Below are positions 1,950 through 48,130 of a stretch of 64,000 nt of DNA, one piece after another (position 1 is the stretch's first letter; each line of letters opens with the position of its first letter). The DNA lies in contig JAJKFJ010020701.1 of NCBI GenBank assembly GCA_027382625.1, forward strand, positions 62,001 through 126,000, read 5' to 3'. The translations under genes were made by a program, and so were the position numbers. Source of the DNA: Tetmemena sp. SeJ-2015 (Eukaryota; Ciliophora; Spirotrichea; Sporadotrichida; Oxytrichidae). Under the pieces are notes generated by a model. That model did not search any database, was not told where the DNA came from, and worked only from the letters and a program-made list of their open reading frames with translations.

Positions 1950-2299
1950 AATTCATAATCAACGGCAGCTCAACTGTAAAAGTATTTCCAAAAATCATTA
2001 TATTTTTTATTATCTTATTTAAGTAGAGCCTAAGCCAACTTGAGACTAGAAAAGGAGATTTCCTCCAAGCACCTCAGCTAAGTTTTTGGAGATGGTGAGT
2101 CCTAACCCGCATCCTTCCTTGTTTAGGTTTCTATTATTCATCACCTTCACGTGCGCTTTGAATAAATTCTTCTAGTCTTGTTCTGGGATCCCCACACCAG
2201 AGTCCTCAACTGAAATATAAACCTAAAAATGTGAGAAATTTAATAAAATGCTGATCTTATCATCTATCAAGCGAGCCTTTATCTTTACGAATCCTTTAT
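1950..2299 (-). CDS. Unit 1: HATPase F/G boxes, C-terminal half of ATPase domain
   Basis: Read on the minus strand, it opens at the pointer ATAAAGGATTC (2289-2299, read on the minus strand), gives GFVKIKARL, then EDSGVGIPE (F/G1 box), EGCGLGLTISKN (G2 box) and ends in FTVELPL. These are the ATP-lid motifs of histidine-kinase ATPase domains. Two short IESs are inferred: an ATTT-bounded one before the EDSG motif, and a TACTT-bounded one between GST and FTVEL. The N box of the same domain lies 8 kb away on the opposite strand (10280-10525), sharing the 11-bp pointer. Confidence 0.85.
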
Positions 2300-2302
2300 A
2301 AT

Positions 2303-2874
2303 CATCCATTGTATAAAATATATTCATCATGATTTGCCTAAAGGAATGCAGATATATTTATAATATAATTTTCAATTAAAACCCTAAATATTTTATAAGA
2401 CTATTTGTGAAATTTCATTCTTAATTTTCTTCTGCTCTAGATAATACCGATTTCAAACAAAACTTATCTGATTTGTTCCAGGTTTATCGGCTTTAATGTA
2501 AATTACTCCAAAAAAAATAAATAGAATAACCTATAGTATATGAACAAAAACCAAATTTATTTGTGTCTACATAAAATTTAAAATATAAAAAGAAAATGTA
2601 TCACGACTAAAAAAAAATACAATAAAATCTTTGTGACAAAACATATTTTTTCTCATTGTCAATTTCAAACTTAAAATTAACATTATAAATGAATTTAATT
2701 GATTTTTATTGTGAGGCTTAGTGAAGATGTAATCAAAAGCCTGCTGAGCTTCTTCGTTATCTTTCAACCTATCATCTCCAGTGAGAAGAAGTAGACTAGT
2801 GAGGGTGGATAATTCACCCTTCTCCTGCTTAGTCCTAACTATTTGAGCCACTTGCAATCCATTCATCTGAGGCA
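2303..2874 (-). CDS. Unit 1: REC-b, second half of receiver domain, with a 226-bp IES
   Basis: It begins at pointer TGCCTCAGA (+ 2866-2874) with MPQMNGLQVAQIVR and runs through LLLLTGDDRL to IFTK. The conserved Lys-Pro of the receiver is split by an IES (2494-2719) bounded by AAGCC. After joining, KPINLEQIRQVLFEIG follows, the usual last helix of a receiver. TGA lies at about 2303-2305, giving a longer tail than in units 2-5. The first receiver half (with the phospho-accepting Asp) is not in the window for this unit. In unit 1 the sequence is clearly diverged (LQVAQIVRTKQEKG against LEMAQIVRARQERG in units 2 and 3). Confidence 0.8.
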
Positions 2875-3371
2875 CATAAAGATATTTTATCTAATGCGCT
2901 ATTAATTCATAATAAGTTAAAAATTCTATTATAATTACTCTCATTTAAGGAATTTCTCATCACCAGTTTTAAAAAAGGAACTAGAGTAAAGTACTAATAA
3001 TTTTAATATATATTATCGCCTATTAAGTCTAGAGCAAAAATAATATAAATTAAAAAAGATTATCCCACTACTATTTTTTAAATCAGAATGGATAATTAAA
3101 AACCCAATTATTCAATTTTCAATTTCAATTATTTCTTTCATATTTCTAACCCGAATTGTAAAATAAGCTAGTTTTTTATTTTAAGTGATAATAGGCCGCC
3201 TTAAAATTTCAGTACTCTAAAACTAAGCATGAGAGATTCTTTGTGATTTGAGGCCTCTTAGAACATTAGGTCTGTCGACCCAGACTAATCTTAGCACTAT
3301 AGTTTATAAATTAGCATATTACTGCACTTTTGTAATTAAGTTTGGTTCAGCAAGATGTTATAAACTAAATT

Positions 3372-4240
3372 TGGGGGGGACGGAAGTGCACCTCCCCCCC
3401 TTTTTATGGTCAAAATAGCCCCAAAATCTTCCATATAGGCCGAAATGGGCCAAAAATGCCAAAAAATTAAGAGTTTTCCAACGTCGAAATTTCCTTGAGG
3501 GTCAAATTTCATGATTTCAATTTTTTTCAAAAATTCTTGCAAAATATATTTCAAGTCAAATTCACCATTAAAATAATAGTTTTAAAATAATATAGGTAAA
3601 ATTTAGGCAGATACTTGATCAGTACCAGCAAAATCTACAATATTAGCCACAAATAGAGGCTATATATAAGTTAAAACAGCCATCAGTATTTATAAATATT
3701 GCATTTATTTGACGTCCTTCCAACATAGAGAAATCTTTCCTCGAATTTATTTACTTAAGAAGAATATGGCAAGTTGAGTTCAAAGTCAAGATAATTTCAT
3801 CTATTGCAGTTTTTGGGTTTCTTACTCTGACTTAAAAAAGAGAAGGTCTCGCAAATTCTATTTTATAAAAGATAGCAAACTTTATTTACGATTTGATAAT
3901 ATCATTTAAACTTCTTGGAAATCAATTGCAGAACAACTTCCACCTATTTTTGATAATCATTTCATAGGCATACTATTTTGAAGAAGAATATATAGGAGTT
4001 CAAATGTGATTCAGTCATTAAAATGAATGGGTCCAAAAACATGAAAGGATTCATCAAAATAAACTTAAGAACAAAAAAATAGAACATTTTGAAAAAATTG
4101 AAATCATGAAATTTGACCCTCAAGGAAATTTCGAAGGCAAAAAATCTTAATTTTTTGGATTTTTCCCATTTCGGCCTATATGGACGATTTTGGGGGTATT
4201 TTGACCATAAAAAGGGGGGTGAAGTGCACTTCTCCCCCCA
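3372..4240. mobile_element. MITE-like element with about 160-bp inverted repeats
   Basis: The left arm (3372 to about 3530) and right arm (about 4085 to 4240) are imperfect reverse complements over roughly 160 bp. Both ends start with a G-run or C-run and a subterminal palindrome around AGTGCACT. There is no transposase inside; the unique centre is about 550 bp. It is flanked by AAATT-like sequence that could be a target duplication, but the flank is palindromic and ambiguous. It lies between REC-b and the sensor part of unit 1, so it would be lost with eliminated DNA. Confidence 0.8.
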
Positions 4241-5320: not shown

Positions 5321-6960
5321 TGAATACGCTCTATGCAAATCTAGTCCTAGATGAATTTACCTATAAATTCAAAGATCCACAATTAGAGCTATTTTTTATT
5401 CAAAAAATTACTCATAATGATTTAATATTCTAAAAAAGAATTTTCCAATTAAAAGATAGAACTTTAGTAAATCATCCATTAAATACAGATAAGTAAATTT
5501 TAGTTAAAATAAGATTTACTTTCCATTTAAAAAAGCTTGCATTCGTCTGAAATCATATTTTACCTTTTAATTAAGTATAATATACTGTATGATTAAGTAA
5601 TATACATTTAAATAAATTAGATTAGATTTGTATATAAAAGTCTATTTATAAATTGAAGAAGTGAGCTAGAATTTTAGAAGTTTTTGCATGAGAAAATAGT
5701 ATACATTAGCAAGATGGCTGTTTGTGAGACAGTTCTTCTTTCGATTATATTTATCTCAGTAACCTTATACGCAGTTCTTTCCATTCAAAGCATATCTGCT
5801 TCTATCTCCATTGCTTGGACAGGGGCTGTCTTTGTCAGTTTCCTTAGCTACGCTCTTTATAGATATTCAGCTAAGAACATAAACTTTGCACTGCAGTTTT
5901 CTAATATTTATACAATAGGCACCGTGGTTACACTTTTAGAGTTGAGCTTTTCATTTTACAATGTGTAAAAACTAATTTACTTAAATGACAACAACAAAAA
6001 ATTAGACTTTTAGTTTCTTTAAAGTATTTAATTACTATTAAAAAATTAGTAAATTGAATTTACTATTCTATATTTAAGAGCATTATGAATCAGAAAGTCC
6101 CAAGAATTGAGTGTTTTCCAGTTATGATAGCTTTCATCACTTCTATTTCTGCGATTAGCTACTCTACTAAGACTCTTCTTTTCATCTACATTCTTTATAT
6201 TTTTGTATTAAAGTTTTTAATGTTTTAAATATGATTGGGCTCTACATTTACATAGGGATAAGAACCTATTTCTGGTTTGAAGACTTCTTTCATTACAAAA
6301 AATTTATTCTTTAATTTTCTTTCACTACTTGTACTTCATTTCTTATTTCTTGGTGGCTTTTATCTTCATCTACCTCTATGCAAGGTATCAGAATATTTTA
6401 TTCTCTTATAATAATTATAGCTGAAAATTTAACAAAAAAGAGATTAAAATTGATTTTTAATTAAATGGAATCAAAACTTATTCAAAGTGTGTCCAATTTA
6501 CATATTTTCTATACCATTCAATTCAGCGTACAATTTTAAGAATTTTATATCCTTGCTACTTTTGTGTGGGGGAGCACAGTAAAGAGTTATAAGAGACAAA
6601 AGTTCATTAAAAAGTGATATTTGGTTCAGGATTTTTCGAAGGACGCATCTCGCTGCTGACCAACACTACGAAGATAATTTAAGAAGAAACTCATGTTAAA
6701 TTTTTTATGAGTTACCTAATAAGCTGCAGAATAGAGGTCGCATCTACGATTTCAAACTGCCTCGAATTTATAACTCTCAATTTATTATTTTAATCAAGCA
6801 ATAGATTTTAATTTAATTTATGTATATTTTTGTATCTCACATACAAAGACCGTCTTCTTTTCAAGGAGCAATACAACTAGCAACAGCTTCTCAAAATTTT
6901 CCATTCACTCATTCGCACCCACCATGATGGAATTCAATCCGTTTTAAAAGAAGTTGTTAA
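5321..6960 (+). CDS. Unit 1: six-helix membrane sensor region
   Basis: Segments in order: LMNTLYANLVLDEFTYKFKD (5321-5380), the first two helices continuous with the next block at 5684-5965 (MHEKIVYISKM... LYRYSAKN ... TLLEL), NQKVPRIECFPVM from about 6085, IGLYIYIGIRTYFW from 6234, HYLYFISYFLVAF from 6323, and YLTYKDRLLFKEQYN to HHDGI ending near 6940. At the RYSAK position this copy has no IES, unlike the four others. Instead it has its own 447-bp IES (6390-6836) with pointer GTATC between AR and YLTYKD. The region looks like a 6-TM input module; no ligand-binding motif was recognised. Confidence 0.75.
6390..6836. other. Unit 1-specific IES, 447 bp, pointer GTATC
   Basis: GTATC occurs at 6385-6389 and 6832-6836. 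Joining them gives ARYLTYKD, the uninterrupted sequence in units 2-5 (for example unit 5: CAAGGTACCTCACTTATAAG). No gene was identified inside. Confidence 0.8.
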
Positions 6961-10002: not shown

Positions 10003-10254
10003 GTGGTGAAGCTCTCGTGATTACAACTATTCGGGACATGTCCCACTGGATTGAGTTAGAACGCTAAAAAAACCTAAACCAATTCAAGACTCTAGCTTTT
10101 GCATAAGCTGCCCATGAATTCAGAAATCCACTGAGTGCAATAATGTCTTCACTAGACTTAATGAAGGGCAGTATTTAGCTGGACTCTGTGAATGAGTAGT
10201 ATTTTAGTACTGCCAAAAATTGCTCCAATCTTCTACTACATCTGGTTAATGATA
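10003..10254 (+). CDS. Unit 1: HisKA dimerisation/phosphoacceptor domain
   Basis: The frame reads GEALVITTIRDMSHWIELER, then AAHEFRNPLSAIMSSLDL, the H box with the phospho-accepting His, and NCSNLLLHLVND. TAA/TAG codons fall at Gln positions (for example ELERQKN, FAQAAHEF). An IES of 29 bp (10255-10283, pointer GATA) separates it from the N-box segment; joined, it reads NDILDYSQIES. Confidence 0.9.
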
Positions 10255-10279: not shown

Positions 10280-10525
10280 GATATCCTTGACTATTCGTAA
10301 ATAGAATCGAGGAAGATTCAAACGAACAAGGACATCATTTCAGTTGAGAGTGTAATCAAAGAAAGCATTGAAATACTTTCATTCAAGGCGCTATCCAAGG
10401 GATTGGAACTTTCTTATCACATAGCTCCTCAGATTCCTTTAAGGCTTATAACTGACCAAAATAGACTGAGACAAATCATCATCAATCTATTATCAAATGC
10501 GATCAAATACACTCATAAAGGATTC
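10280..10525 (+). CDS. Unit 1: HATPase N box, ending at the inversion pointer
   Basis: DYSQIESRKIQTNKD ... LSFKALSKGLELSYH ... TDQNRLRQIIINLLSNAIKY is the classic N box (Asn of NLLSNA binds ATP-Mg). In this unit LSFKALSK is uninterrupted, whereas units 2-5 have a small IES there. It ends at ATAAAGGATTC (10515-10525), the same 11 bases that begin the minus-strand ATPase half at 2289-2299. Confidence 0.9.
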
Positions 10526-11266: not shown

Positions 11267-11474
11267 TCTGAGGCATTTAATTATCGAGGATGAGTAGCTA
11301 ATAAGGAATATGATGTCTGCAGTTTATATCCCTGCCTGAAGTGTGAAAACTGCATTTAAAAGTTAGCTCAAAATTTTCTTCAATCATTTGGAGAGCTTTT
11401 ATCGGATCAAAACATTTATCTATGCTATTTATTCCTATCTATCCTAACATTCCATTCAATATCAGCACATTAAA
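11267..11474 (-). CDS. Unit 2: REC-a, first half of receiver with phospho-accepting Asp
   Basis: Minus-strand reading is FNVLILNGMLGQIGINS ... FDPIKALQMIEENFEL ... YQLLILDNQMPQ; the Asp of LILDNQMPQ is the expected phosphorylation site. It enters at pointer TTTAATG (minus sense of 11468-11474), joining to the VDDDPFN segment, and leaves at pointer ATGCCTCAGA (minus sense of 11267-11276), shared with REC-b at 16112-16121. Confidence 0.85.
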
Positions 11475-11938: not shown

Positions 11939-12760
11939 CATTAAAAGGATCATCATCTACTATTAGAATCTTAGGGTGAATGCATTAAGGTTCCCAAACA
12001 GTGAAAGAAACTTCATTGATACTATCTTAATTTTGATCATCAATTTAATTAAGCTGGTTCAACTACTGATCAATGATCAGTTGCTAGTTCGTAATATAGT
12101 TGTTGTTAATGAAAATATGCACATTCAAATAATATTTAAATCCTCTTCATTTTACATTAGAGCCACTAGAATCTTAAGACTCAATCTAACAACAAAAAAG
12201 AGAGTTTAAATTTAATCTAGTCAATTTAATTGTCAAGAGTCTGTTAATTTTCTTTTGCTCCTGAAATTACTGGTCTGTAGATGTGTTCACTTCTATTTAA
12301 GTTGTAGTCCTCAAATTTGACATGATTAGTTTCTATCAAGCCTTCGTCAAACTCTTTATCATACTCAGACTAAGTAAGAGTTTAGCACATTCTCTCTGAA
12401 AATAGTTATCTAGCTAAAGGATCTCTCAATATTTCAGCAAAAATAATATTTGAAGCATTATAACGAATATCATTGGGCCATTCAAAAAATCTAAAGGAAT
12501 TAATGAATAAAATAGAGTGGATTATTAATTGCAATTTGAAGACATTGTTGCGTTCATCTTTACAATATTTGAGATCTCTATGCTATCATTTGAAGTTTAG
12601 CTTATTAAGTTATTGTTCATAATAAAGGGTTATTAGTTAATTTATTCACTATTGGTATCTTGTATTTGCTTCAAATTGAGTATAGTAGTGCTTCTTTCTT
12701 TTATTTTTGGTTAGCTCTACCTTCTCGGACTTAATTAAATTTCGCTTAAGTTTGAGTCTA
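11939..12760 (-). CDS. Unit 2: linker and start of receiver (ILIVDDD)
   Basis: Going leftward on the minus strand: a polar linker including YDKEFDEGLIETNHVKFED and RSEHIYRPVISG (about 12240-12400), NNNYITNQQLIIDQQLNQ, then VWEPQCIHPKILIVDDDPFN ending at pointer TTTAATG (11939-11945). The acidic VDDD begins the receiver. A 471-bp IES (11475-11945) separates it from REC-a; joining gives DDDPFNVLILNGML. The outer part (12460-12760) is homologous to unit 5 linker but frame is uncertain. Confidence 0.7.
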
Positions 12761-15124: not shown

Positions 15125-15475
15125 CAAATTAATTGGCAGCTCGACCATGAAAGATTATTTTTTTCTCTTAATAATTTAAAAGTAGAACCGAATCCAATTT
15201 AAGATTTGAAAGTTAAATTTCCTCCAAGTGCCTCAGCCAGATTCTTTGAAATAGTAAGTCCCAGTCCACACCCCTCTTTGTTTAAATTTCTATCTTTCAT
15301 GATCTTCACATACGCTTTGAACAAGTTCTTTTAGTCATTTTCAGAGATCCCTACTCCAGAGTCCTCTACTGAAATTAGACAACATAATTATTTGTTTTAT
15401 TGAAACATTATATAAAACTATATTTAAATCTGGATCTTATTTTCTGCAAGGCGAGCCTTTATTTTGACGAATCCT
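15125..15475 (-). CDS. Unit 2: HATPase F/G boxes
   Basis: It opens at AGGATTCGTCAAAAT (minus sense of 15461-15475), a 15-bp sequence repeated exactly on the plus strand at 20389-20403. It then reads KARLAENKIQI, an ATTT-bounded IES, SVEDSGVGISEND, EGCGLGLTISKNLAEALGGN, and after a CTTT-bounded IES of about 30 bp, TFMVELPIN. All ATP-lid Gly residues are present. Confidence 0.88.
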
Positions 15476-15830: not shown

Positions 15831-16121
15831 TCAAACTTTATATAATAATTGGCTTTCATCTTTAAATAGCCCTATTTCAATTAAGACTTCCTTAAGCTCC
15901 AGTTAGTCTATTGGCTTAAATAAATTATCATAAGTCAAGCAACTTTGAATTATATTGTGAGGCTTGGTGAATATGAAGTCAAAAGCTTTAAGTGCATCTA
16001 AGTCATCTTTGAGTCGATCATCTCCCGTGAGGAGGATCAGTTTAGTTAGGGTTGATAAGTCTCCCCTCTCTTGTCTCGCTCGCACTATCTGAGCCATCTC
16101 CAAGCCATTCATCTGAGGCAT
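15831..16121 (-). CDS. Unit 2: REC-b, last MDS with the stop codon
   Basis: It starts at pointer ATGCCTCAGA with MNGLEMAQIVRARQERGD, continues through LILLTGDDRLKDDLDALKAFDFIFTK, and is split by a 48-bp IES (15918-15965, pointer AAGCC) inside the conserved Lys-Pro. Joined, it gives TKPIDQLELKEVLIEIGLF and ends KV-TGA (15831-15833). The Lys-Pro and the Thr/Gly of the receiver are intact. Confidence 0.88.
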
Positions 16122-16372: not shown

Positions 16373-18487
16373 ATGAGAATATCCACCAATAGAAATTTGA
16401 TAACCTATTTTAAGCTTAATGAATTTGAAAAATAGACTTTCTCATATAGTGCTACTAAGATAGAAGCCAGAGAATCCATTAGTAGAGACTCCTAAATAAC
16501 ATAAAGACCAAGCCGAATTCATGATTCGTAAGATCGAGGCAAAACATATGGTAAATAATCATAAAATATTAACTTTTTTTTATTTAGGCTTGCTTGAAAA
16601 TCGTGGGAATTCTAGCGATTTTGAACGCTAGAGTGAAACAACTTTTCAAAACTTCGATTTAAATTGACTTATAGCTCAAGATAGAAGTTAATTGCGGAAG
16701 TATAGAATAACTTAATACAAGTTGAAAATTATTTCGCTGACTGGTTCTATGAGGGGGGGAGTAGTAGTAGTAGTACAGCACTAGTGCCAGAAGACGAGTC
16801 AGCGAATTCTTAATTAAAGTCCAATCACCCTTCCAACTCTGATCACATTAAAAATTAATCGCCAGCCACTCCAATGTCTTAAAAATTAATCAACCACTTT
16901 TTAATTAAAGGTGGCAGCCATCTCGACTTAGAATAATTAAGATCTCTAATTATCAAAAAACATTCTTAAATCAAACATGGAGTTGACTTTCACTTCCTCC
17001 CAGACTTCCTCTTAACATTTATCATATGACTTTTCTCAAAGCATTGGATGAATCTGATTTCTACAATCTACCTAATTAACGAAGATCGTAACCTATTAGA
17101 AGAAAAACATACAACTAGCACACTCCATCCAAAAATTTTAACATCAATTTTAGCAATCCTAAATTGGAGTCTACCTCAAAACTTGAATCTCAAAGTGAAG
17201 ATGAAATTATCAACAACGGTTTGAATATATTTCCCGTTTATTTATCATTCATCCATATAATTTGAAAAAGCTGATGAGTGCACTATATTCTACGCTAAAA
17301 CTAGATAGATTTACCTTTTAGTTTAAAGATCCAAAGCTTGAGCTAGAGTTTTAAATGTTTCTGCACAAGAATATTAAATATTTCAGCAAAATGGCATACT
17401 TTGAGGTATTTATGCTCACAGTAATTTTCTTTATGATAACAATTTACGGCATAATAACTAGTTATAAAGTTGATGATAGGATTTTGATTTCCTGGGCACT
17501 GGCGCTTTTTATATGCTTTCTTTGTTATATCACTTATAGAAATCTTTGTTAATTATTTATATTAATCAGAATTTTTATATAAAATTACTACACATTTATA
17601 AAAAACTCAAGAGTAAGTGTCACAAAAGGAGTGTAGAGATAACACCACTTAAGTAATTTTAAAATTTTTAGATTTTTCTTTCCATTTATTTTAAGTTGTA
17701 TAGTTATCTAAAGTAAGATATGTAGTCACCTAAATATAAGACTTCTTTAATTTTCAAAGAATTGGGGATATAAATTGGAAAAGTCTTAAACTCTGAAAAG
17801 CTTTCTATCTTTCTCATAAACTCTATTCCAAGTTTAGCGAAGTATCAAAAGGGGCAGTTATGTTAAACTCTCACAAAGGGTGCATGATACTGCAGATCTA
17901 CCCTTTTGGAGCTGTTAGCCTTTATCTATTAACTTTTTAATTTTCCACTTTATCAATATTTTAGATTTTTATATAGAGTTTCCGCAAAGCCTTTGAAGTT
18001 TGCTCTTCACTTTTGCACTTATATACAATTGATCCTTTACTACTCTTCTTGAGTTGAGTATAATAAACCAGAGAGTCCCTCGGATTGACTGCTTTCCATT
18101 GATGATGGCTTTTGTAACCTCTATCTCTGCGATAAACTATTCCCCTAAAACTCTTCTCATTGTTTACATTCATTTAATAAAAACCCTCTTTTATAAATTT
18201 TAATTTAATTCTTAACTTATTGGTTCTCTATTTATACCTCTGCATAAGGACATATTTTTGGTTTACCGTTTTTAATCTCTAATTAATGGATTACATAGAA
18301 TATTATTGAGGATATTTTTAATCATTACCTGTACTTCATATCTTACTTTTTGCTCACTTTCATATTTATCTACCTCTACGCGAGGTATCTCAACTACAAG
18401 GATAGATAACTTTTTAAGGAATAATACAACTAGTAACAGCTTCTCAAAATTTTTCATTCTCTCATTCGAACTCACCACGATGGAATT
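16373..18487 (+). CDS. Unit 2: N-terminus and membrane sensor
   Basis: Starts ATG AGA ATA TCC ACC AAT AGA (MRISTNR); an IES with pointer AATAGA (copies at 16388-16393 and 16431-16436) follows. The next piece reads out of frame after LSH because one base is missing relative to unit 3. Membrane part: LMSALYSTLKLD (17270), MFLHKNIKYFSKM, ISWALALFICFL, then a 437-bp IES (17541-17977, pointer TATAGA) joining as TYRVSAKPLKFALHFC. A single-base loss after FALHFC and one extra base before YLCIRTYFW also break the frame, so the copy is either a pseudogene or carries consensus errors. Segment 16680-17095 is an insert absent from units 3-5. Confidence 0.7.
16728..16815. repeat. Short imperfect hairpin with GTA microsatellite
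   Basis: TTCGCTGACTGGTTC near 16731 is roughly complementary to GACGAGTCAGCGAA near 16796-16809, with a G7 run and (GTA)4-5 in the loop. It lies in a 400-bp insert found only in unit 2. It may be a tiny foldback element. Confidence 0.4.
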
Positions 18488-18589
18488 CATAAAAATATTT
18501 TATACTTCTACTAAAATATTTTTTTTTAAAAATATTTAATTTTTAAAATTTTAATTATTGGTAAAAAAATTTTTAAAAAAAATTTTTCA

Positions 18590-19594: not shown

Positions 19595-19817
19595 ATCTAA
19601 ACAGGGTGCGAAGCCCTGGTATTACAACTATTCGTGATATGTCTCACTGGATTGAGTTAGAGCGCTAGAAAAAAATAAAATTTAGTTCAAGACTCTGGCT
19701 TTTGCAAAGCTGCCATGAATTGAAATCCACTAAGTGCAATATGTCTTCCCTAGACCTAATGAAGAGAGTTTTAAAACTTGACTCTGTGAATGAGTAGTAT
19801 TTCAGTACTGCCAAAAA
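19595..19817 (+). pseudogene. Unit 2: HisKA segment with several small deletions
   Basis: The homologous phrases TTIRDMSHWIELER, KTLAFA and MSSLDLMK are recognisable, but single bases are missing at 'CTGGTATTAC' and through the H-box region (GCTGCCATGAATTGAAATCC against GCTGCCCATGAATTCAGAAATCC in unit 1). The phospho-His codon context is therefore destroyed as written. It then runs into a noisy homopolymer patch (19818-20100) that replaces the LLLHLVND end. Confidence 0.65.
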
Positions 19818-30654: not shown

Positions 30655-30912
30655 AGGGGGTGAAGCCCTGGTGATTACAACTATTCGTGATATGTCCCAC
30701 TGGATAGAGTTAGAGCGACAGAAAAACCTAATCAGTTCAAAACTCTGGCCTTTGCATAGGCTGCGCATGAGTTTAGAAATCCTCTGAGTGCGATAATGTC
30801 TTCACTAGACTTAATGAAGGGTAGTATTTAGCTGGACACCGTGAATGAATAATACTTTAGCACTGCTAAGAATTGTTCTAATCTTCTTCTCCATTTAGTG
30901 AATGATATCCTT
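30655..30912 (+). CDS. Unit 3: HisKA domain
   Basis: GEALVITTIRDMSHWIELERQKN, AAHEFRNPLSAIMSSLDL, LLLHLVNDIL. The first part of the H-box is written GCGCATGAGTTTAGAAATCC (AHEFRNP), so the phospho-His is intact. It matches units 1, 4 and 5 closely. Confidence 0.88.
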
Positions 30913-31279: not shown

Positions 31280-31545
31280 TCAAAAATATTCCCAAATAGA
31301 GTCAAGAAATATTAAAACTAACAAAGATGTCATTTCACTTGAGAAAGTAATTTAAGAGAGTATCGAAATACTCTCATTCAAAGATTAATTTTATTCAAAG
31401 CGATATCGAAGGGTCTGGAGCTTTCTTACCATGTAGCAAATAACATTCCATAGCGGCTGATGACTGACCAAAATAGATTGAGACAGATTCTCATAAACCT
31501 TATTTCTAACTCTATCAAATATACTCACAGAGGATTCGTCAAAAT
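31280..31545 (+). CDS. Unit 3: HATPase N box with a 17-bp IES
   Basis: Reads YSQIESRNIKTNKDVISLEK, LSFKAISKGLELSYHVANN, TDQNRLRQILINLISNSIKY. ATTCAAAG at 31376-31383 and 31393-31400 bounds a 17-bp IES whose removal is required for the frame. It ends at AGGATTCGTCAAAAT (31531-31545), partner of 25951-25965. Confidence 0.88.
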
Positions 31546-31679
31546 TTTAAATAAAAATGATGAAATCTCAAGTTATTTAAAAATGGTAAAATTGAAGAAA
31601 AAATCTACAAAATAAAAGAGAATGCCAATTGTGAAGTAAATGAACTTTATTAAAAATAACTACACATCCTGTCTCAGTT

Positions 31680-32373: not shown

Positions 32374-32581
32374 TCTGAGGCATCTAATTATCAAGGATGA
32401 GTAGCTAATAAGGAATATGATGTCTGCAGTTGATATCTCTATCTGGAGTTTAGAAACTGCATTTGAAAGTGAGCTCAAAATTTTCCTCTATCATTTGAAG
32501 AGCTTTTATCGGATCAAAGCATTTGTCTATACTATTTATTCCTATCTATCCTAGCATTCCGTTCAAGATCAGTACATTAAA
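32374..32581 (-). CDS. Unit 4: REC-a, first half of receiver
   Basis: FNVLILNGMLGQIGINS, FDPIKALQMIEENFEL, LLILDNQMPQ, with the phospho-accepting Asp. Pointers are TTTAATG (32575-32581; partner 32837-32843, IES 262 bp) and GCCTCAGA (8 bp shared with 34756-34763). Confidence 0.85.
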
Positions 32582-32836: not shown

Positions 32837-34010
32837 CATTAAAAGGATCATCATCTACTATCAAAATTTTCGAATGAGTGCATTTTGACTTTTGAATATG
32901 CTGGAATGGTTCATTATTGCTATCATCACTTTCATTTTAAGCTAGATTCAGAGGCTTAGTCTCAATATTTTAGAGCTAGCTCGTATAGTAGTTGTTATTT
33001 ATGAAAATCTGCACATATTCAAAATTAAAATTAAAACCTCTACTTTTAACATTTGTATAATTTGAATCAGAAGCTTCAATCTTAAAATAAGAAACAAAGT
33101 GTGAAACTGATAATCTGGCCTCTGGAATTATCAAGAGGCTGATCATTTTCATATGCTCTTTCAATAATTGGTCTATAGAAGTGCTCGCATCTATCTAAGT
33201 TGTAGTCCTCGTATTTAACTTAGTTTGTTTCAATTAATCCCTCATCCAATTCTCTATCGTGCTAAGAATAGGTTTGAGCCAAACTCTATCTCTCGGAAAG
33301 TTGCAAATGAACTATATTGTTTCTCTAAAGTCCTGCCAAAAAATATGGAAAATTAAAAATTAAGGCCACCGAAGCATTCAAAAAATCCAAATAATTTTTA
33401 TGAATAGTATAAGTGGTTTATAAATTGTAAATTTAGGGTATTCGTTAGTATTTCTACACAAATTTTGGATCTTAAAGGTTTAAATTTGGGTTTTAAAGTT
33501 ACATTTCATTTATTATGTTCCTCCTTATATTCTATGATTACTGGATTTTCTGCTTTGCTGCGTTCATTAGTCCCTAACTAGAAAATTTCATTCTTGCCTT
33601 ATTTCTCTCTAGAATTTTCTAGTAGCTCTAACTTCTGAGCTTCTTTCTAGGACGAAATTGAATTTCACTCAACTTCACCATACTCGACTCTTGGTAGTTT
33701 AATTCAAATTGTTAATTATAATTTTTATGAATCGTTTGAGTATTCCATCTGTCTATGGTGATCAGGACTGTCACTCCCTTCCTCATTTTCTTCCTCCTCC
33801 ACTATCCCATCATCTGAGGTTAGAAGATGCCTCATTAAGTTTCTGTTCTTCGGTTCAATTTAGCGAATTAGCAATCCTTGGTTTCTCCTCACTTTGACAC
33901 TTAAACAAAATTCTATAAAGGTGATTACATTATATAACTGCTACTGAACTTATCAGTCGCATAAGCCCTTTCAAAATTCTCATCATTAGAAGGGGAATCT
34001 CTTTAACTTA
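32837..34010 (-). CDS. Unit 4: linker and ILIVDDD receiver start
   Basis: Minus reading includes HSKILIVDDDPFN at the pointer, the middle linker YDRELDEGLIETNQVKYEDY and RCEHFYRPIIERAYE (33140-33290), and the acidic SDDGIVEEEENEEGSDSP-type run near 33760-33840. A short AGT-bounded IES splits SSS from VKVRRNQGLL near 33890-33945. No transposon lies in this linker, unlike units 2 and 3. Confidence 0.7.
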
Positions 34011-34053: not shown

Positions 34054-34399
34054 GTTTATTGGCAGCTCCACAGTGAAAGTAAATTAGAAACTTTATAAAT
34101 TAATAATTTAAAGTTGAGCCGACTCCAACTTAGGACTGAAAAGTTAAATTTCCTCCAAGTGCCTCAGCCAGATTCTTTGAAATAGTAAGTCCCAGTCCAC
34201 ACCCCTCTTTGTTTAAATTTCTATCTTTCATGATCTTCACATACGCTTTGAACAAATTCTTCTTGTCATTATCTGAAATCCCAACGCCAGAGTCCTCAAC
34301 TGAAATCATACAACATAATTTAGGATATTATATCATTATAGAATTTTATAAATCCGGATCCTATTTTCGAGAAGGTGAGTCTTAATTTTGACGAATCCT
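34054..34399 (-). CDS. Unit 4: HATPase F/G boxes
   Basis: Opens at AGGATTCGTC (minus sense of 34390-34399; partner 41852-41861). Motifs EDSGVGISDNDKKNLFK, EGCGLGLTISKNLAEALGGN and FTVELPIN are intact after removal of two short IESs. Confidence 0.87.
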
Positions 34400-34486: not shown

Positions 34487-34763
34487 TCATTAGTACTACT
34501 CATCTTAAAATATTCCTATTTCTTATAAAACGTGTTCCAGCTTTTGAACATCAATTGGCTTTTAAAATTGTCAATGCAGAAAAATGAAATTAATTTAAAC
34601 CTAATGCTTGGTGAATATAAAGTCAAAAGCATTAAGAGCATCTAATTCATCTTTGAGTCGATCATCTCCAGTCAGTAGTATTAGTTTTTTAAAGGTGGAT
34701 AATTCTCCCTTTTATTGTTTAACTCTCACTAATTATGCCATCTCCAAGCCATTCATCTGAGGC
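34487..34763 (-). CDS. Unit 4: REC-b, last MDS with the stop codon
   Basis: PQMNGLEMA, LILLTGDDRLKDELDALNAFDF, then a 48-bp IES (34562-34609, pointer AAGC) splitting Lys-Pro; joined, it gives TKPIDVQKLEHVLQEIGIFQD and TGA at 34487-34489. Confidence 0.85.
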
Positions 34764-35064: not shown

Positions 35065-37028
35065 ATGAGGATATCCACCAATAGAATAAGTCATTTAAAA
35101 TAAAAAGGATTTGATTATAAATTATGATAAATAGGCTTACCAATTTTAGTCCTTCAATGAGAAATGCTCCAGAGTTCATCAACCGGCAAACTCTGCCAAG
35201 AGAAAGGTAAAATCATTTTCAAGATTCCTAAGAGAAAGGCATATAATTAAGTAGATAATTAAAGAATTAACTATTTGTGGCATGATTTCAAATGCTGGGA
35301 AAATAAGCGAATTGGATCGCTTCAGTCAAGTACATCAGAGCGAAACCACCTTTTACAACTTCGATTATAATTTACTAAAAGCTAAATCTTAAAACTAGCA
35401 TGATCCAATCCATAATGAAAGCGTCAGTTTTAACATCCCTTAAGCTTCATCTACCACTAAGTTTGACACCCAAAGAGAAGATGAAGTAATTAACAATGGT
35501 TTGAACATAATAGTTTAAATGAAATCTTTCTTATAGGTTTGAAAGTGTTGATGAGCACTTTATATTCTACACTGACATTAGATAAGTTCACATTCTAATT
35601 TAAGGATCCAATTCTTGAGCTCTAGTTTTAAATGTTTCTGCATGAGAAAATTAAATATTTCGGCAAAATGGCGTCATACGAAACCATCCTTCTCACATTT
35701 ATTTTCTTTTCAGTAACAATTTTCAATGCTATAACAAAAAGGCAAATTGATTCTTAGAATTTTTTTAAAAAATAAGCTATAATTATTTTAAGTCATAGAG
35801 CTTGCAGCAAAATCGAAAAAATAAAAAAAATATGCCGAGAGACCATCAATCTGGTAAGGAGGTAAATTCTGTTTTATCTGTTTTTTTTTTACTTTTCATA
35901 ACTTCTAAATAGTTTTTATATGTGCTTTTACAACAAAAGCAAGTATTCAGAATGAGAGGTTTTTTCAGTTTAAAAGCCTACTAATCTTTTGAAAATAGCA
36001 TCGAAGTCATTACATAGTTTTAGAGTGCTCGAAAACTAGAGGGATGGCTAAGCAAGTTATGAGCATATTATATAAATGACAAGAGAGGTTTCTTAATTTT
36101 CAAAATAATGTTCAATAATTATTTGATTCATAGAATTATTTCCTGGGGACTAGCACTTTTTATATGCTTTCTTAGTTATATTGCATATAGAATTAAGCTT
36201 TAATTTATTGAAAGTTTTAATTTTTAATTATTGAATTTCAGCGAAGAACTTAAAGTTTGCACTACACTTTTGTACAATATATACTATTGGGTGCTTCGCT
36301 ACTCTACTAGAAATGAGCATATTAAACTAAAAAGTGCCACGAGTTGACAGTTTTCCAGTAATGGTTGCTTTCATTACTTCTGTCTCAGCTATAAACTACT
36401 CCCCTAAAATACTGCTTTTTGTGTACATTCAATAAAAAATAATATTTACTATTTTAGAATAAGGTGTAAATTCATTGTGCTTTACTTGTACCTCTGCATA
36501 AGATCTTATTTTTGGTTTTCCGTCTTTAATGATCAAAATTATTTTTGAAAATATTTAAAAATCAGATTAAAAAAAGATTGAAGAGGAAGTGGTTGGAGGA
36601 GGAGGGCTCAGTTTGGAGTTAAGAGATCCTATAATTAGATATTTCGATGATTGATGCTCATCTTATTTCGTGACTAAAGAGATTATGAAAAATTAAGACA
36701 GAAGTAGTGCCTTTTTTAATTTTTGATTATATTTCATACAATCAATAGGGAAAAAAGTAGTAAACTAAACTGCCACCTATATTCAGCCCCACCCTTTGAT
36801 TTTAAATAAGATGGATTTTAATTAAATTCTTTAATATGTATAAATCATTTAAATTATATTTAATGACTTCTTGTACTTTATATCTTACTTTTTGTTAGCA
36901 TTTGCATTCATCTATCTATATGCGAGATATCTCACTTACAAGGACAGATAACTTTTTAGAGAATAATACAATTAGAAGCAGCTTCTTAAAATTTTCCATT
37001 CACTCATTCGAACTCACCATGATGGAAT
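35065..37028 (+). CDS. Unit 4: N-terminus and membrane sensor
   Basis: MRISTNR (35065-35085), AATAG-bounded IES, RLTNFSPSMRNAPEFI, then NFDYNLLKAKSQNQHDP ... TKFDTQREDEVINNG and, through a GGTTTGAA pointer, LKVLMSTLYSTLTLDKFTF. Sensor pieces: MFLHEKIKYFGKMASYETIL; an IES of about 340 bp at 35780-36130; WGLALFICFLSYIAYR; a 43-bp IES (36195-36237, pointer GAATT) giving YRISAKNLKFALHFC; and a 334-bp IES (36533-36866, pointer TTTAATGA) giving VFNDFLYFISYFLLAF. It ends at HHDGI. Here the codon that is TGA in units 2, 3 and 5 is TTA. Confidence 0.8.
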
Positions 37029-37074
37029 TCATATTTTTATGCCCACTATTTTTTAAAAGAATTTTATAATATAT

Positions 37075-41304: not shown

Positions 41305-41560
41305 CAGGCTGTGAAGCACTGGTGATTACAACTATTCGTGATATGTCCCACTGGATTGAATTAGAGCGACAGAAAAACCTAAATCAGTTCAAGACTCTGG
41401 CCTTTGCCTAAGCAGCTCATGAGTTCCGAAATCCACTGAGTGCAATTATTTCTTCACTAGACTTAATGAAGGGCAGTATATAACTTGACTCTGTAAATGA
41501 GTAGTACTTCAACACAGCTAAAAATTGCTCCAACCTTCTACTGCATTTGGTAAATGATAT
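41305..41560 (+). CDS. Unit 4: HisKA domain
   Basis: GEALVITTIRDMSHWIELERQKN, AAHEFRNPLSAIISSLDL, CSNLLLHLVNDIL. H box intact. A short IES with ATATCCT/ATATCCT-like ends leads to DYSQIES of the next segment. Confidence 0.88.
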
Positions 41561-41589
41561 TCTTTCTAATTTTTAATTAAATTTTGAAA

Positions 41590-41861
41590 TATCCTAGACT
41601 ACTCCCAAATAGAATCGAGGAAGATTCAAATGAACAAGGACATCGTTTCGCTTGAGAAAGTAATTTAAGAGAGCATCGAAATTCTCTCATTCAATATATA
41701 ATTGTAATATATTTTTCAAAGCTGTTTCTAAGGGTCTAGATCTGTCTTACCATGTGGCATCCCAGATTCCAGAGAGACTGATGACTGACCAAAATAGATT
41801 AAGGCAGATTCTCATCAACCTCATTTCAAATGCTATCAAATACACTCACAGAGGATTCGTC
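41590..41861 (+). CDS. Unit 4: HATPase N box
   Basis: DYSQIESRKIQMNKDIVSLEK, LSF + IES (41690s) + KAVSKGLDLSYHVASQ, TDQNRLRQILINLISNAIKY. It ends at AGGATTCGTC (41852-41861), partner of the minus-strand half at 34390-34399. Confidence 0.88.
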
Positions 41862-42263: not shown

Positions 42264-42960
42264 TCTGAGGCATTTTTATTGGAAGTATAAAAAATATTTT
42301 AAATTATATTTTGGATTGCTGTTTTAAAAGTCTAAAAATTTTTTTCAATCTTTGGGGTTTTTACGGTAAAAGACCAATTTTATTTATTACCCTAGTTCCT
42401 TAGTTAAAAAAATAAAAAAATTTTATTTAAATTTTAAAATTTTCAAAAAAATTTACTAAAATAGGGGTAATAATAGAAAGAAAAAAAATTTTCTAAACGA
42501 TATCCATTTAAAATAATGGATAATTTATTCAAGGTCTAGCTGCTGTTGAATTAATAAAATTTTTGGAGTTAAGAAGAGAATAGTTGCAGCATCCTCTTAA
42601 AAATTTAAAAATTGTTAATGTCATATTGTAACTTAATAATTTGAGTAAGGGGATCTTAACACAAAGCTTAAAATCAATATGATTTACAATTCAAATTTTT
42701 AAATGAGGAAAATCAAATCTTTAATCAAAAGTTCTTGAGGAGATCTTACTTAATCTTTTTTATTAAAATTATAAAATCATCAAATATAGTGTGAGGATGG
42801 CTTATGCATCTTTTAAGAACCTTTTTACAAAATCAAATTAGGTTTTTTTCAAATTTTTCAAATAAAAAAAAAATTGCTTTAAAAATAATTTTAGAAAAAT
42901 GTCACTCAAATTTGAAAAAAAAAAATTTTTTTTTAAAAAATATTCCCACAAAATTTTTAT
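42264..42960 (-). pseudogene. Unit 5: corrupted REC-a / receiver start
   Basis: The pointer ATGCCTCAGAT is exact at 42263-42273, but beyond it (42275-42960) the sequence only vaguely tracks unit 4: TTTTACGGTAAAAGACC where unit 4 has TTTTATCGGATCAAAGC, and TTATTTATTACCCTAG where unit 4 has CTATTTATTCCTATC. A/T and homopolymer runs replace the LILDNQ and IVDDD codons. Either the receiver half has decayed or the consensus is poor here. Confidence 0.5.
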
Positions 42961-43009
42961 GCAATTACTCTAAACAATAAAATTAATTATATCCTACTTT
43001 TAAAACTTT

Positions 43010-44040
43010 AGCCATTTCGTTGCTCATTATTCATTGGCTATTCGTGTAGTAGTTGTTATTTATGAAAATCTACACATTCAAATGATAATAACTAAAGACT
43101 CTTCATTTTATCAATTCGCGTAATTAGAATCAGAAGCTGCGATCTAGGTTTAACTTTAGATCTTGGCTATTAAATTATCAAGTGGCTGTTCAATTTCATT
43201 TATAACAGGAATTAATGGTCTATAGATATGCTCGCATCTATCTAAGTTGTAGTCCTCGAATTTAACTTGGTTTGTTTCAATCAAGCCCTCATCGAACTCT
43301 CTATCATACTGGGAATAAGTGAGACGCTAACTCTCCCCCTCTGACAAGAGTTATAGAATTATAGGGTCTCTCTAAAGTGCTGCTAAAAAAGGAAAAATCA
43401 TTAAATTAAGCCTGTGGGCCATTTAACGAATCCAAATAAACTTATATAACCCAAAATAGCCTTTTTAATTGTAGCTTTGAGGTATTCTTGAGTATTTATT
43501 TCCAAAATTTAATGTTTATAAGCCTACATTTGAAGCTTATTGTTACGTTTGACTTATCTCGTTTGTGTTTATAATCTATGATTAGGGAATAGTCTGCTGT
43601 ATAGTGCTGACTAGTCCTTACCTAGAATGATTTCTTCTCGCCTATCCTCTCTCTTTAATTTTCTTGTAACTCTAACTTCTCAGTTTCTTTCTTGGACGCA
43701 TATGCAATTCACTCAACATCACTATGGTCGCTTCTTGGTAGTTTACTTTAAATTATCAAATAGAATTTTCTAAAAAAAGGTTTGAGTATTCCAATTCTCT
43801 TTTATTAGCAGGACTATCGCTCCCATCTTCATTTTCCTCCTCCTCTACTATCCTATCATCTGAGGTGAAAAGATGCCTCATTATATTTATGTTCTTCGGT
43901 TCTATTTAACGATTTAGCAATTCTTGGTTTCTCTGCACTCTAACACTGAAATGGAATTTGCAAAAAATATAACTGCTACTAGATCTATCCACAGCATAAG
44001 CTTTTCCAAAGTTCTCATTATTTGCTAGTTTTTGAAAACT
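43010..44040 (-). CDS. Unit 5: linker between ATPase and receiver
   Basis: Minus reading, from high to low coordinates: QTQRLNNGLNKSFQKLANNE, AYAVDRSSS, a 27-bp IES with pointer CAGT, VRVQRNQELLNRQIEPKNIN, SDDRIVEEEENEDGSDSP, then YDREFDEGLIETNQVKFEDY and RCEHIYRPLIPVIN (43200-43330), and FHKQQLLHEQPM near 43050. Coding is continuous apart from short AT-rich inserts. Confidence 0.75.
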
Positions 44041-44074: not shown

Positions 44075-44405
44075 TTGATTGGCAGCTCCACTGTGAAAGT
44101 AATTAAAACTGTTAATAATTTTAAAGTAGAGCCCACTCCAACTTAGGACTAAAAGGTTAAATTTCCTCCTAATGCTTCGGCCAATTCTTTAGAGATAGTG
44201 AGTCCCAGTCCACACCCCTCTTTGTTTAAATTTCTATCTTTCATAATCTTCACATACGCTTTGAACAAGTTTTTCTTGTCATTTTCTGAAATCCCAACCC
44301 CAGAGTCCTCAACTGAAATCGTATAAGAATTTATTTAGAATATATTAAATATTATAAATGCGAATCTTATTATCAACGAGGCGAGCCTTTATTTTGACGA
44401 ATCCT
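44075..44405 (-). CDS. Unit 5: HATPase F/G boxes
   Basis: Opens at AGGATTCGTC (minus sense of 44396-44405; partner 48121-48130). KARLVDNKIRI, an IES of 40 bp with pointer ATTT, SVEDSGVGISENDKKNLFK, EGCGLGLTISKELAEALGGN, then a 27-bp IES with pointer TACTTT (44096-44122) and TVELPIN. All motifs intact. Confidence 0.9.
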
Positions 44406-44515: not shown

Positions 44516-44792
44516 TCATTCTTCACGTAAAATTCCTATTTCTTTTAACACATGTTTCAACTTTTCAACATCAATCGGCTTTAAAATTGACAAAAAAAGA
44601 ATAATGAAAGTAATTTAAAGTAATTGAAAAAAGCTTGGTGAATATGAAGTCAAAAGCTTTAAGTGCATCTAAATCATTTTTGAGTCGATCATCCCCAGTG
44701 AGAAGGATCAGCTTTGTCTATGTAGATAAATCTCCCTTTTCCTACTTCGCTCTAACTAATTGAGCCATGTCTAAGCCATTCATCTGAGGCAT
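44516..44792 (-). CDS. Unit 5: REC-b, last MDS with the stop codon
   Basis: MPQMNGLDMAQLVRAK, LILLTGDDRLKNDLDALK, an AAGC-bounded IES splitting Lys-Pro; joined, TKPIDVEKLKHVLKEIGILR and TGA at 44516-44518. Confidence 0.87.
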
Positions 44793-45132: not shown

Positions 45133-46449
45133 ATGAGGATATCCACCAATAGAAATTTATGATAACAAATAAGTGCATTTTATGCGATATTATTCATAGA
45201 CTTTCTCAGTTTAGCCCTGCTGTTATTGCTGCACGCGAGTCCATGAGCCGAGACACCCAAATAAGAAAAAGATCCAGCCGCCTGCACGATTCTTATGATA
45301 TAGGCCATTTAAAAATTTAAAGATAAGCGCGAAAAAATGTAATTAAACTTTTTTTTTAGGCTTGCTTTAAAATCCTGGAAACTCGAGCGATAATGATCGC
45401 TTCAGTCAAGCTCATCATAGCGAAACTACCTATTACAACTTCGATTTTAATTGACACAAAAGAAAAACTTAAATTCAGCATGCTCCATCCCAAAACTTTG
45501 ACAGTAGTTTTAACATCCCAAAAGCATAGTCTACCTCAAAACTTGATTCCCAAAGAGAAGATGAAATAATTAACAGTGGCTTGAAAAATAAATAAAGGCT
45601 TATATAGTGTTTAATATGGTTATAAATTTGAAAGTGTTGATGAGCACTTTATATTCTAAGCTGACATTAGATAAGTTTACTTTCAAGTTTAAGGATCCAG
45701 TTCTTGAACTTGAGTTTTAAATGTTCCTACATGAAAAAATAATATATTTCGGCAAAATGGCCTCCTATGAAACAGTCTTACTTACATTAATTTTCTTTAC
45801 AGTAACAATCTTTAATGCAATCACAAGAAGGCACTTAGATTCTTAGATCTTGATTTCTTGGGCACTGGCGCTTTTCATTTGCTTCCTAAGTTTCATTGCA
45901 TATAGAATCTTTAATTAATTTTGAGATCCATTTAAACTTTGAATAAAGAATTTCAGCGAAGTACTTAAAGTTTGCACTACACTTTTGTACCATATATACT
46001 ATTGGGTGCTTCACTACTCTTCTTGAGTTGTGTATATTAAATTAGAAAGTGCCACGAGTTGACTGCTTTCCAGTGATGGTTGCATTCATGACTTCTGTCT
46101 CAGCTATAAACTACTCACCTAAAGTTCTTCTATTTGTTTACATTCATAAAGAAATTTCACTTTAATCAAAGATTGAAAATAATTCTAAAATAATTGCGCT
46201 CTACATATACCTTTGTATTAGGACTTATTTTTGGTATACCGTCTTTAATCATCAAATTAATAATTAAATGCTATGTATTTTTATCATTACGTGTACTTCA
46301 TCTCTTACTTTATGCTCGCATTTGTATTTATCTATGTATATGCAAGGTACCTCACTTATAAGGACAGATAACTTTTTAAGGAATAATACAACCAGCAGCA
46401 GCTTCTCAAAATTTTCCATTCACTCATTCGAACTCACCACGATGGAATT
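45133..46449 (+). CDS. Unit 5: N-terminus and six-helix membrane sensor
   Basis: The cleanest copy. Seven MDSs can be joined by pointers: MRISTNR (ATAGA) LSQFSPAVIAARESMSRD (TAGGC) LLQNPGNSSDNDRF ... (TTGAAA) KVLMSTLYSKLTLDKFTF, MFLHEKIIYFGKMASYETVL, ISWALALFICFLSFIAYR (AGAAT) ISAKYLKFALHFCTIYTIG ... LLFVYI (ATT) ALYIYLCIRTYFWYTVFN (ATCAT) HYVYFISYFMLAFVFIYVYA, LTYKDRQLFKEQYN, HHDGI. About six hydrophobic helices result. IESs are 35-56 bp. One codon after NFDFN is TGA as written. Confidence 0.85.
45909..45951. other. 43-bp IES, pointer AGAAT (reference example)
   Basis: AGAAT at 45904-45908 and 45947-45951. Excision of 43 bp restores AYRISAKY; unit 1 encodes LYRYSAKN without any insert. There is no GT...AG, so this is not a spliceosomal intron. 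Confidence 0.88.
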
Positions 46450-46533
46450 CATTTTTAAAATTTAAGATTTATAGATCTTTCACTTTTATGAATATGAGTT
46501 TAATAAAAATTCTCTATAAATATTTTGAGGTTT

Positions 46534-47522
46534 AATTGTGTTCACAACTGGAGAGAAAATGATTTCCTACAATACTAAAATAGCAGAGATTTTTAATGCA
46601 GAGTTGGATTGTGAATCCATTTATCATTAAAAAAAGCTTTAAAATCTTATTTATTGACCATTTAAAAAGGCTGCTAGCAATCTAATGATATTCATCATTT
46701 ATAAATTAATAACTCATAAATTTTCTTTATCAATTCCTGAATAAGCCACCACGGAGGCAAACAAACAGCTTTTCAATTAAAGTAAATAAAACTTTATCTC
46801 GAGAAAGGCTCCCCAATAGTAATAAAAGCAGTAGCAAAAGCAGCTCTCTAAAAATAAAAAGAGACTCGCAGGCTTCCTAACAGGAAACAAAAGGAGTTAC
46901 TGGGAAGTAAGTATGAGATTACAGCAAATATGTCTGCTGTTCTAAAAATAAAAATAATCAAAATGGAAACTCCCAGAATCCGAAAAAACTGGCCACGACT
47001 ATTAAAAGCAGAGAAGATAATGAAAGTGGAAGAGTAGATGAGGAGTTTTAATCAGAGTAGATTAACAAAAGTGGGGGATCCTCTCCTAAAAAGAAGATAC
47101 TGAGATAAATTTAAGAATAAGAGCAGGGAGCTCAAAATGAAAATTGTCGAAATTTTAGGAAATTTAGGAGTGAATCTATGAGCTCCGAAAAGTCGTAGTA
47201 ATGTGAAAGACTCAAGGAATTTCTCAACTATTTTTAAGTGTTTTCTATATTTATTAAACTAAGCATATTTAGATAAGCATCAGTTCAAGAAAAGATAGGA
47301 TGATGAGAATGATGATATAATTGGGTCGTGGGGGAATATATGGGAATATATTTAGTACCTATCTAAGATGAAGAAAACGCATCTCCTAGATAGTAAGGTT
47401 ATAGAGAAAATGAATGAAGGCGTGTTTTTCAAGCTGAAAATATTTAATGCCGATAATTCTAGCTAAAATGGAAGCTAAAAGGGTTATGAAACTAAAATGC
47501 TTCAAGTTTTTCCTCAGATAAT
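46534..47522 (+). CDS. Unit 5: PAS-like segment and linker
   Basis: Joined to HHDGI through an AATT pointer (88-bp IES 46450-46537): VFTTGEKMISYNTKIAEIF. The linker from about 46740 is Lys/Ser/Gln-rich (NKPPRRQTNSFSIKVNKT, SNKSSSKSSSLKIKRDSQ) and ends ERLKEFLN. A 31-bp IES (47231-47261, pointer AACTA) leads to QAYLDKHQFKKRQDDENDD, WGNIWEYIQYLSKMKKTHLL, EGVFFKLKI, KMLQVFPQI. An in-frame TGA near 46915 lies where unit 2 has TAA (Gln). Confidence 0.75.
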
Positions 47523-47564
47523 ACATTTATATTAAATCATTTAGATTAAGGTAATAATTTTGAA

Positions 47565-47833
47565 ATAATCCAAACTGGTGGTGAAACCCTAGTGATTACA
47601 ACTATTCGTGATATGTCCCACTGGATTGAGTTAGAGCGATAGAAAAATCTAAATCAGTTCAAGACTCTGGCTTTTGCATAGGCCGCTCATGAATTCAGAA
47701 ATCCACTGAGTGCAATTATGTCTTCACTAGACTTAATGAAGAGCAGTATTTAACTTGATACTATGAATGAGTAGTACTTCAACACTGCTAAAAATTGTTC
47801 CAACCTTCTACTGCATTTAGTTAATGATATCCT
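47565..47833 (+). CDS. Unit 5: HisKA domain
   Basis: Bounded by pointers ATAAT (47518-47522 with 47565-47569) and ATATCCT (47827-47833 with 47858-47864). Reads IQTGGETLVITTIRDMSHW, AAHEFRNPLSAIMSSLDL, NCSNLLLHLVNDIL; H box intact. Confidence 0.92.
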
Positions 47834-47857
47834 TAAAAGTTTATAACGATTTTTAAA

Positions 47858-48130
47858 ATATCCTAGACTACTCCCAAATAGAGTCGAAGAAGATTTAAAC
47901 GAACAAAGACATCGTTTCCCTTGAGAAAGTAATTTAAGAGAGCATCGAAATACTCTCATTCAATTTTATATAGGTATTTTTATTTCAAAGCTGTTTCTAA
48001 GGGTCTAGATCTGTCTTATCATGTGGCATCCCAGATTCCAGAGAGACTGATGACTGACCAAAATAGACTAAGACAGATTCTCATCAACCTTATTTCTAAT
48101 GCCATTAAATACACAAACAGAGGATTCGTC
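47858..48130 (+). CDS. Unit 5: HATPase N box, ending at the inversion pointer
   Basis: DYSQIESKKIQTNKDIVSLE, LSF then a 25-bp IES (47964-47988, pointer TTCAA), KAVSKGLDLSYHVASQIPER, TDQNRLRQILINLISNAIKY. The block ends at AGGATTCGTC (48121-48130), found in inverted orientation at 44396-44405. Confidence 0.92.

Follow-up and report, generated by a model that had tools for sequence, protein, structure and literature searches.

The window analysed here, a stretch of 64,000 nucleotides from Tetmemena sp. (positions 62001-126000 of contig JAJKFJ010020701.1, hereafter C1781, in an assembly of 146 Mb and 5213 contigs), carries five units of a tandem array of putative hybrid histidine kinase genes whose coding segments are permuted and divided between the two strands. 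Judged from its sequence, the window is germline (micronuclear) DNA of a hypotrich-like ciliate. This rests on in-frame TAA and TAG inside conserved blocks, with kinase domains that are readable when both are taken as glutamine; on CCCCAAAA repeats that start no later than the ninth base in 11 contigs, a pattern that is its own reverse, so that a reversed-pattern control is uninformative; and on the closest proteins. Among the matches listed, these are from Stylonychia lemnae and from entries with ‘eukprot’ numbers, which we take to be Oxytricha trifallax.

The array consists of seven tandem units on C1781:45768-110133, two of which (UA and UB) lie to the left of the window and five (U1 to U5) inside it, at 1950-48133 (Table 1). 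Conserved blocks were mapped by tblastn over the first 176,000 of the 176,884 bases of C1781, using cut-offs of E<1e-5 for a census and E<=1e-3 for a wider table. Along the plus strand, the order within a unit is RECb2(-), RECb1(-), F/G(-), RECa(-), membrane N-terminus(+), HisKA(+), Nmid(+) and N box(+). In the census HisKA, Nmid and N box were each found seven times on the plus strand, F/G seven times on the minus strand and RECb1, RECb2 and RECa six times each on the minus strand; no block was found on the opposite strand. The wider table added a weak minus-strand RECb1 match within the U3 HisKA (35%, 5e-4) and a partial U5 RECb1, and nothing else. N half and F/G lie on opposite strands in all seven units. 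The receiver is present as three germline pieces, RECb1 (..KILIVDDDPFN) and RECb2 (..LLILDNQMPQ) to the left of F/G and RECa (MNGL..TKP) to its right. An earlier sequence-only reading of the window had described five tandem units, each with HisKA and N box on the plus strand, F/G and receiver on the minus strand, and both receiver halves present, one on either side of F/G. The strand assignment was borne out in every unit. Five is the correct count for the window but not for the array, and the receiver does flank F/G but in three pieces rather than two halves. Both halves lie inside the window for three of the five units (U2, U3 and U4), but the N-terminal receiver half (RECb) of U1 lies outside it, at contig 60380-61264, and that of U5 is a remnant at best.

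A composite product of 938 residues, assembled from pieces of more than one unit in the order N half, F/G, RECb1, RECb2, RECa, scored above the Pfam cut-off for all three domains of a hybrid histidine kinase (HATPase_c 7.9e-24, HisKA 6.3e-16, Response_reg 5.5e-9). The H box AAHEFRNPL and the receiver motif LDNQ are visible in the array sequence. The units thus probably encode membrane-bound hybrid histidine kinases with presumed kinase activity. All 42 database relatives tested, the best of 120 listed out of 4106 matches in all, show the same block order; seven blocks were found in 28 of them, six in eight and five in six. Relative to this product order the coding segments of the array are permuted and inverted, as in a scrambled gene. 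Among the matches listed, the nearest relatives have 64% identity over 54%, or 49% over 98%, of the searched part. Hybrid histidine kinases of S. lemnae and of presumed O. trifallax share HisKA, HATPase_c and receiver with the array, and several have a similar membrane N-terminus; unlike the array, these records, known here as proteins only, are colinear.

Pointer repeats are present at the scrambled joins. At J1, where the N half would be joined to F/G, each unit holds an in-register pointer (10 bp in UA, 11 in UB and U1, 15 in U2 and U3, 10 in U4 and U5); random in-register runs of at least 10 made up 0.00015 of 20,000. The UB pointer has a second occurrence, which is off-phase. At J3 (RECb2 to RECa), repeats of 8-12 bp around ATGCCTCAGAT, found without a register condition, occur in all five units that have both sides. 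Under the ciliate code the reading phase is kept at J1 in six of six units tested (UA was left out, its F/G being damaged) and at J3 in five of five, amounting to 11 of 11 joins. Past J1, the frame continues into SVEDSG in UB, U1 and U2 only.

In the intact units, strong purifying selection acts on both halves. The ratio of nonsynonymous to synonymous substitution rates (dN/dS, from Nei-Gojobori counts under the ciliate code) was 0.04-0.07 for the N half in the six pairs among U1, U3, U4 and U5, and 0.01-0.10 for the C half (F/G, RECb2 and RECa; U5 without RECb2) in the ten pairs among U1-U5. U2 and U3 differ in the C half by 23 synonymous changes and 1 nonsynonymous change, and the U4-U5 pair gave 0.06 for the N half and 0.08 for the C half.

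We analysed the relationships of the units in three trees, with support given as SH-aLRT/UFBoot. C3698, a duplicate of the C2499_322k locus, was left out, as were C1369b and loci whose alignment for the first tree covered fewer than 120 columns. In this first tree (HisKA, Nmid, N box and F/G; 60 sequences) the eight scrambled sequences, namely the seven units and contig C1369, form one clade (95.3/100). Separate trees recovered the clade from the N half (97.4/100, 60 sequences) and from the C half (99.4/100, 58 sequences). Units branch identically in the two, as ((UA,UB),(U1,((U2,U3),(U4,U5)))), with modest support at inner nodes (e.g. 75.6/80 for U2-U5 in the N half and 73/99 for U4+U5 in the C half). 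C1369 has the identical inverted layout (92% identity over 4.7 kb), and C1423, of which 8000 of 10764 bases were read, has F/G and RECa in part of this layout (96% identity over 4.4 kb); both may be alleles. Another tandem histidine kinase array, C1782, has at least five units whose matches are all on the minus strand and colinear; tandem duplication alone therefore need not bring scrambling.

Related loci in the same assembly display less rearranged states. We examined ten loci that keep N box and F/G in line. RECa is in line as well, by matches spanning RECb2 and RECa, in C2499 (three places), C2013 (two), C3489, C1759 and C1782 (two), a set that leaves out C2499_274k and C1049. In C512, RECa(-) at 11398-11598 lies ahead of the membrane region(+) at 12161 and the remaining blocks are on the plus strand. 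In C2810, RECa(+) at 123085-123271, with one frameshift, lies ahead of the membrane region(-). This reversed 5’ position had been predicted before it was found; a search of C2810 down to 117300, made before the 5’ side was read, gave no RECa. The J3 pointers of C512 and C2810, assigned by eye, are AAATGAGTGGA and AGATGAGCGGA. Just past the C2810 RECa there is a second membrane N-terminus (124098-124595), which suggests a further kinase copy or fragment. C512 and C2810 group with the array in one clade (88.9/96). An ordinary short eliminated sequence occupies the J1 site in C512, C2810, C2499_268k and C2499_322k (pointers by eye CACTC, ACAAA, ACTCATCA and ACAGA) and probably in C2499_264k, giving four, probably five, of the ten loci; it is absent in the other five (C2499_274k, both C2013 loci, C1049 and C3489). 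In the HisKA to F/G tree, a branch (93.5/89) splits the array plus the five loci with a J1-site eliminated sequence from the five without, which stand beside Halteria.

Because this branch groups the array with loci that carry such a sequence, the inversion junction of the array probably sits at the site of an earlier ordinary eliminated sequence. Because the sister genes C512 and C2810 have RECa inverted too, the inversion of RECa to the 5’ side would be older than the array. By parsimony, the C512 state plus a single inversion of the stretch from RECa to the N box gives the array order, and the scramble appears to have arisen in at least two steps. In the history that we propose, an ordinary eliminated sequence would have been present first between N box and F/G. 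A first inversion would have reversed RECa at the 5’ side, a state retained by C512 and C2810, and a second, with its breakpoint in the J1-site eliminated sequence, would have turned F/G and RECb round against the N half. How many inversions there were, and where exactly they ended, is our estimate. Whole-unit tandem duplication would then have copied the scrambled layout. During development of the somatic nucleus, the minus-strand block would be inverted relative to the plus-strand block and RECa placed behind RECb2; ordinary eliminated sequences would be cut out, and the short pointer repeats would mark the joins. The sequence-only reading had argued that the protein needs an inversion and that the scramble arose once before tandem duplication. 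The former is supported by opposite strands in seven of seven units, constrained halves in the intact units, in-register and in-phase pointers and 42 of 42 colinear relatives, with somatic joining itself presumed. The latter agrees with monophyly in three trees and with the matching branching of N and C halves, amended to seven units and to a scramble built in at least two steps. Taken as a whole, a scrambled seven-gene array joined via inversion, with a single stepwise origin followed by tandem copying, is in our view highly probable.

Several observations weigh against this reading. No joined copy was found in the same assembly among the matches listed (150 of 358 candidates scored). UB is without RECa and most of HisKA (21 of 85 HisKA columns are kept), the UA F/G is damaged, U5 has no readable RECb1 end or RECb2, and small indels break the H box of U2; the U3 HisKA has small indels as well. 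N-half dN/dS is 0.11-0.26 in the computable pairs with U2, because its H-box frame is broken, and C-half dN/dS is 0.65 for UA-UB, because the UA F/G is damaged. Saturation at synonymous sites made dN/dS uncomputable in 17 of 42 pairs, each of which includes UA or UB. The frames of U3, U4 and U5 break off a few residues past J1, where another small eliminated sequence probably lies. If register is ignored, shared strings of 10-11 bp are not rare, and the longest common substring without register was dropped as a pointer test that is too weak. At J3 of U4, the longest shared string is an unrelated 11-mer and not a pointer, and the in-place 9 bp was used instead. C512 and C2810 pair with 54/53 in the C-half tree. 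Pairing of the halves by unit is also not uniformly favoured: the UA N half shares 13 bp with the UB F/G, more than the 10 with its own damaged one, and the U3 N half shares 16 bp with the U4 F/G against 15 with its own. A distance-matrix correlation for the pairing (0.38 vs 0.14) was weak and was dropped as a decider.

Part of the damage may be technical. Small indels or homopolymers are clustered at window 19800-20100 and 42265-42995 and at contig C1781:47311-47514, with two patches inside otherwise conserved blocks. This clustering suggests poor consensus in the U2 H box, the UA F/G and the U5 RECb2; the alternative is perhaps decay. We initially took U5 as a unit that had simply lost RECb2, a view replaced by a possible damaged remnant at 42265-42408. 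It scored 110 against the U2 piece (maximum 99 in 200 shuffles) and 100 against the U4 piece (maximum 103), and is thus near chance by score, yet it is correctly placed and ends at a pointer.

If the units were germline-limited pseudogenes whose halves had been flipped by chance and were never assembled, the missing or damaged blocks of UB, U5, UA and U2 and the transposase-like pieces among the units would be expected; the low post-duplication dN/dS of both halves and the in-register pointers in all seven units make this highly improbable. That the inverted layout is an assembly artefact is barely credible: there are patches resembling poor consensus, but the layout recurs in seven diverged units, in C1369 and partly in C1423, and the sister genes differ from it in a graded way. 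Duplication and decay would start from two head-to-head copies, one keeping the N half and the other the C half, while their complements rotted into eliminated sequence. The head-to-head layout fits this model, which has been published for scrambled loci (excerpts of PMC9797194). Decayed complementary segments were not found near the array: at E<1e-5 the 176,000 bases hold neither F/G nor receiver on the plus strand and neither HisKA nor N box on the minus strand, and the E<=1e-3 table lists none either, although weaker remnants may remain. As C512 and C2810 also show a simple inversion state, we consider duplication and decay unlikely.

Inversion of F/G-RECb in place, whereby each N half would pair with the C half to its right, in the next unit, requires an equally short path from a C512-like state. 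J1 pairings across units are often equally long, and all 16 among U2-U5 reach 10-16 bp in register, so that pointers are interchangeable there; the 13 bp between the UA N half and the UB F/G fit this pairing as well. Against it, both array ends would have to be lost, the UB N half shares 11 bp in register with its own F/G and 3 bp with that of U1, and N and C trees match by unit. For these reasons we favour pairing within units and regard pairing with the next unit as quite unlikely, somewhat more so than duplication and decay. If the halves do pair within units, no gene’s segments would lie inside another gene’s interval in a nested, Russian doll fashion. Interchangeable J1 pointers in U2-U5, together with similar ones between RECb2 and RECa, also raise the idea of a combinatorial store of cassettes, in which an N half from one unit might be combined with a C half from another into a chimeric sensor kinase. 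It would explain purifying selection in the rest of units that lack a readable segment (U5 and U2). Mixing would be limited from the N halves of UA and UB, which share 1-4 bp with the F/G of U1-U5 (5-10 bp in the reverse direction, N of U1-U5 with F/G of UA and UB). Combinatorial rearrangement is reportedly the topic of a published paper; for this array we think it very unlikely.

Between the blocks of the array lie broken pieces of DDE transposase elements (window 13077-14160, 20560-21000, 22784-24460, 31640-32100 and 39250-40200), presumably resembling the TBE elements of hypotrichs. One of three pieces tested, taken from the copy at 22.8-24.5 kb, matches DDE_3 (PF13358, 6.5e-8). Two short elements like miniature inverted-repeat transposable elements, with long terminal inverted repeats beginning with C/G runs, are located at 3370-4250 and 8210-8830. 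To the right of the array, GC-richer DNA contains long frames at 49260-50591 (443 aa, code 6) and 51535-52116 (193 aa without reassigned stops). No Pfam family was found in six long frames at 48-59 kb or in four frames of the transposon region. Elsewhere in the assembly there is a RECb2-like match at C3936:31001-31225 (67% identity), and some contigs look bacterial, with receiver-domain frames that stay open for up to 1232 residues.

Table 1. Segments of units U1 to U5 in the window (window coordinates)
Feature	Position	Strand	Remark
U1 F/G block	2019..2294	-	tblastn
U1 RECa (C-terminal receiver piece)	2696..2875	-	
U1 membrane-spanning N-terminal region	5678..6936	+	several pieces, approximate
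U1 HisKA	10005..10253	+	
U1 Nmid + N box	10289..10525	+	ends at J1 pointer ATAAAGGATTC
U2 RECb2	11268..11471	-	..LLILDNQMPQ
U2 RECb1	11940..12425	-	linker + KILIVDDDPFN
U2 F/G block	15172..15474	-	
U2 RECa	15942..16121	-	
U2 membrane N-terminal region	17096..18501	+	approximate
U2 HisKA	19621..19821	+	H-box frame broken by small deletions
U2 Nmid + N box	20144..20404	+	J1 pointer AGGATTCGTCAAAAT
U3 RECb2	21224..21427	-	
U3 RECb1	21935..22427	-	
U3 F/G block	25669..25964	-	
U3 RECa	26497..26676	-	
U3 membrane N-terminal region	27804..29540	+	approximate
U3 HisKA	30659..30912	+	one frameshift
U3 Nmid + N box	31287..31546	+	J1 pointer AGGATTCGTCAAAAT
U4 RECb2	32375..32578	-	
U4 RECb1	32838..33297	-	
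U4 F/G block	34112..34398	-	
U4 RECa	34607..34762	-	
U4 membrane N-terminal region	35269..37043	+	approximate
U4 HisKA	41313..41564	+	
U4 Nmid + N box	41597..41861	+	J1 pointer AGGATTCGTC
Possible U5 RECb2 remnant	42265..42408	-	many small deletions, ends at ATGCCTCAG; near chance by score
U5 RECb1	42995..43365	-	linker only, DDD end not found
U5 F/G block	44116..44404	-	
U5 RECa	44622..44792	-	
U5 membrane N-terminal region	45349..46488	+	approximate
U5 HisKA	47580..47834	+	
U5 Nmid + N box	47866..48133	+	J1 pointer AGGATTCGTC

Ciliates are well known for inverted and permuted segments with pointers, according to excerpts of three accounts (PMC2394655, PMC9797194, PMC10901763). In the excerpted description of the actin I gene of S. 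lemnae (PMC2394655), segments are permuted and partly inverted, pointers measure 3-19 bp and ordinary eliminated sequences lie beside scrambled junctions, all of which resembles the array. Actin I is a single gene, whereas the array is a seven-member tandem family with one permutation and with relatives in intermediate states. For Oxytricha, Tetmemena and Euplotes woodruffi, excerpts of PMC9797194 report that scrambled genes have more paralogs, favour duplication and decay and stress local duplication. The array is likewise paralog-rich; unlike the emphasis of those excerpts, it suggests that inversion took place at an eliminated sequence that was already there, and no decayed complements were found at the cut-offs used. 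Within the open-access literature searched, we found no report of scrambled kinase genes in a tandem array. Scrambled genes are already known; with its intermediates, the array adds an informative new case.

It is an open question how genes come to be scrambled. In this genome, colinear, one-step and two-step states of one gene family occur together. The second junction probably lies at a site where relatives carry an eliminated sequence. The end state is present in seven copies, and the intact ones still bear the mark of selection. The stepwise inversion model thereby becomes directly testable, and these data suggest that a gene can be passed on and duplicated in working order while its layout is scrambled.

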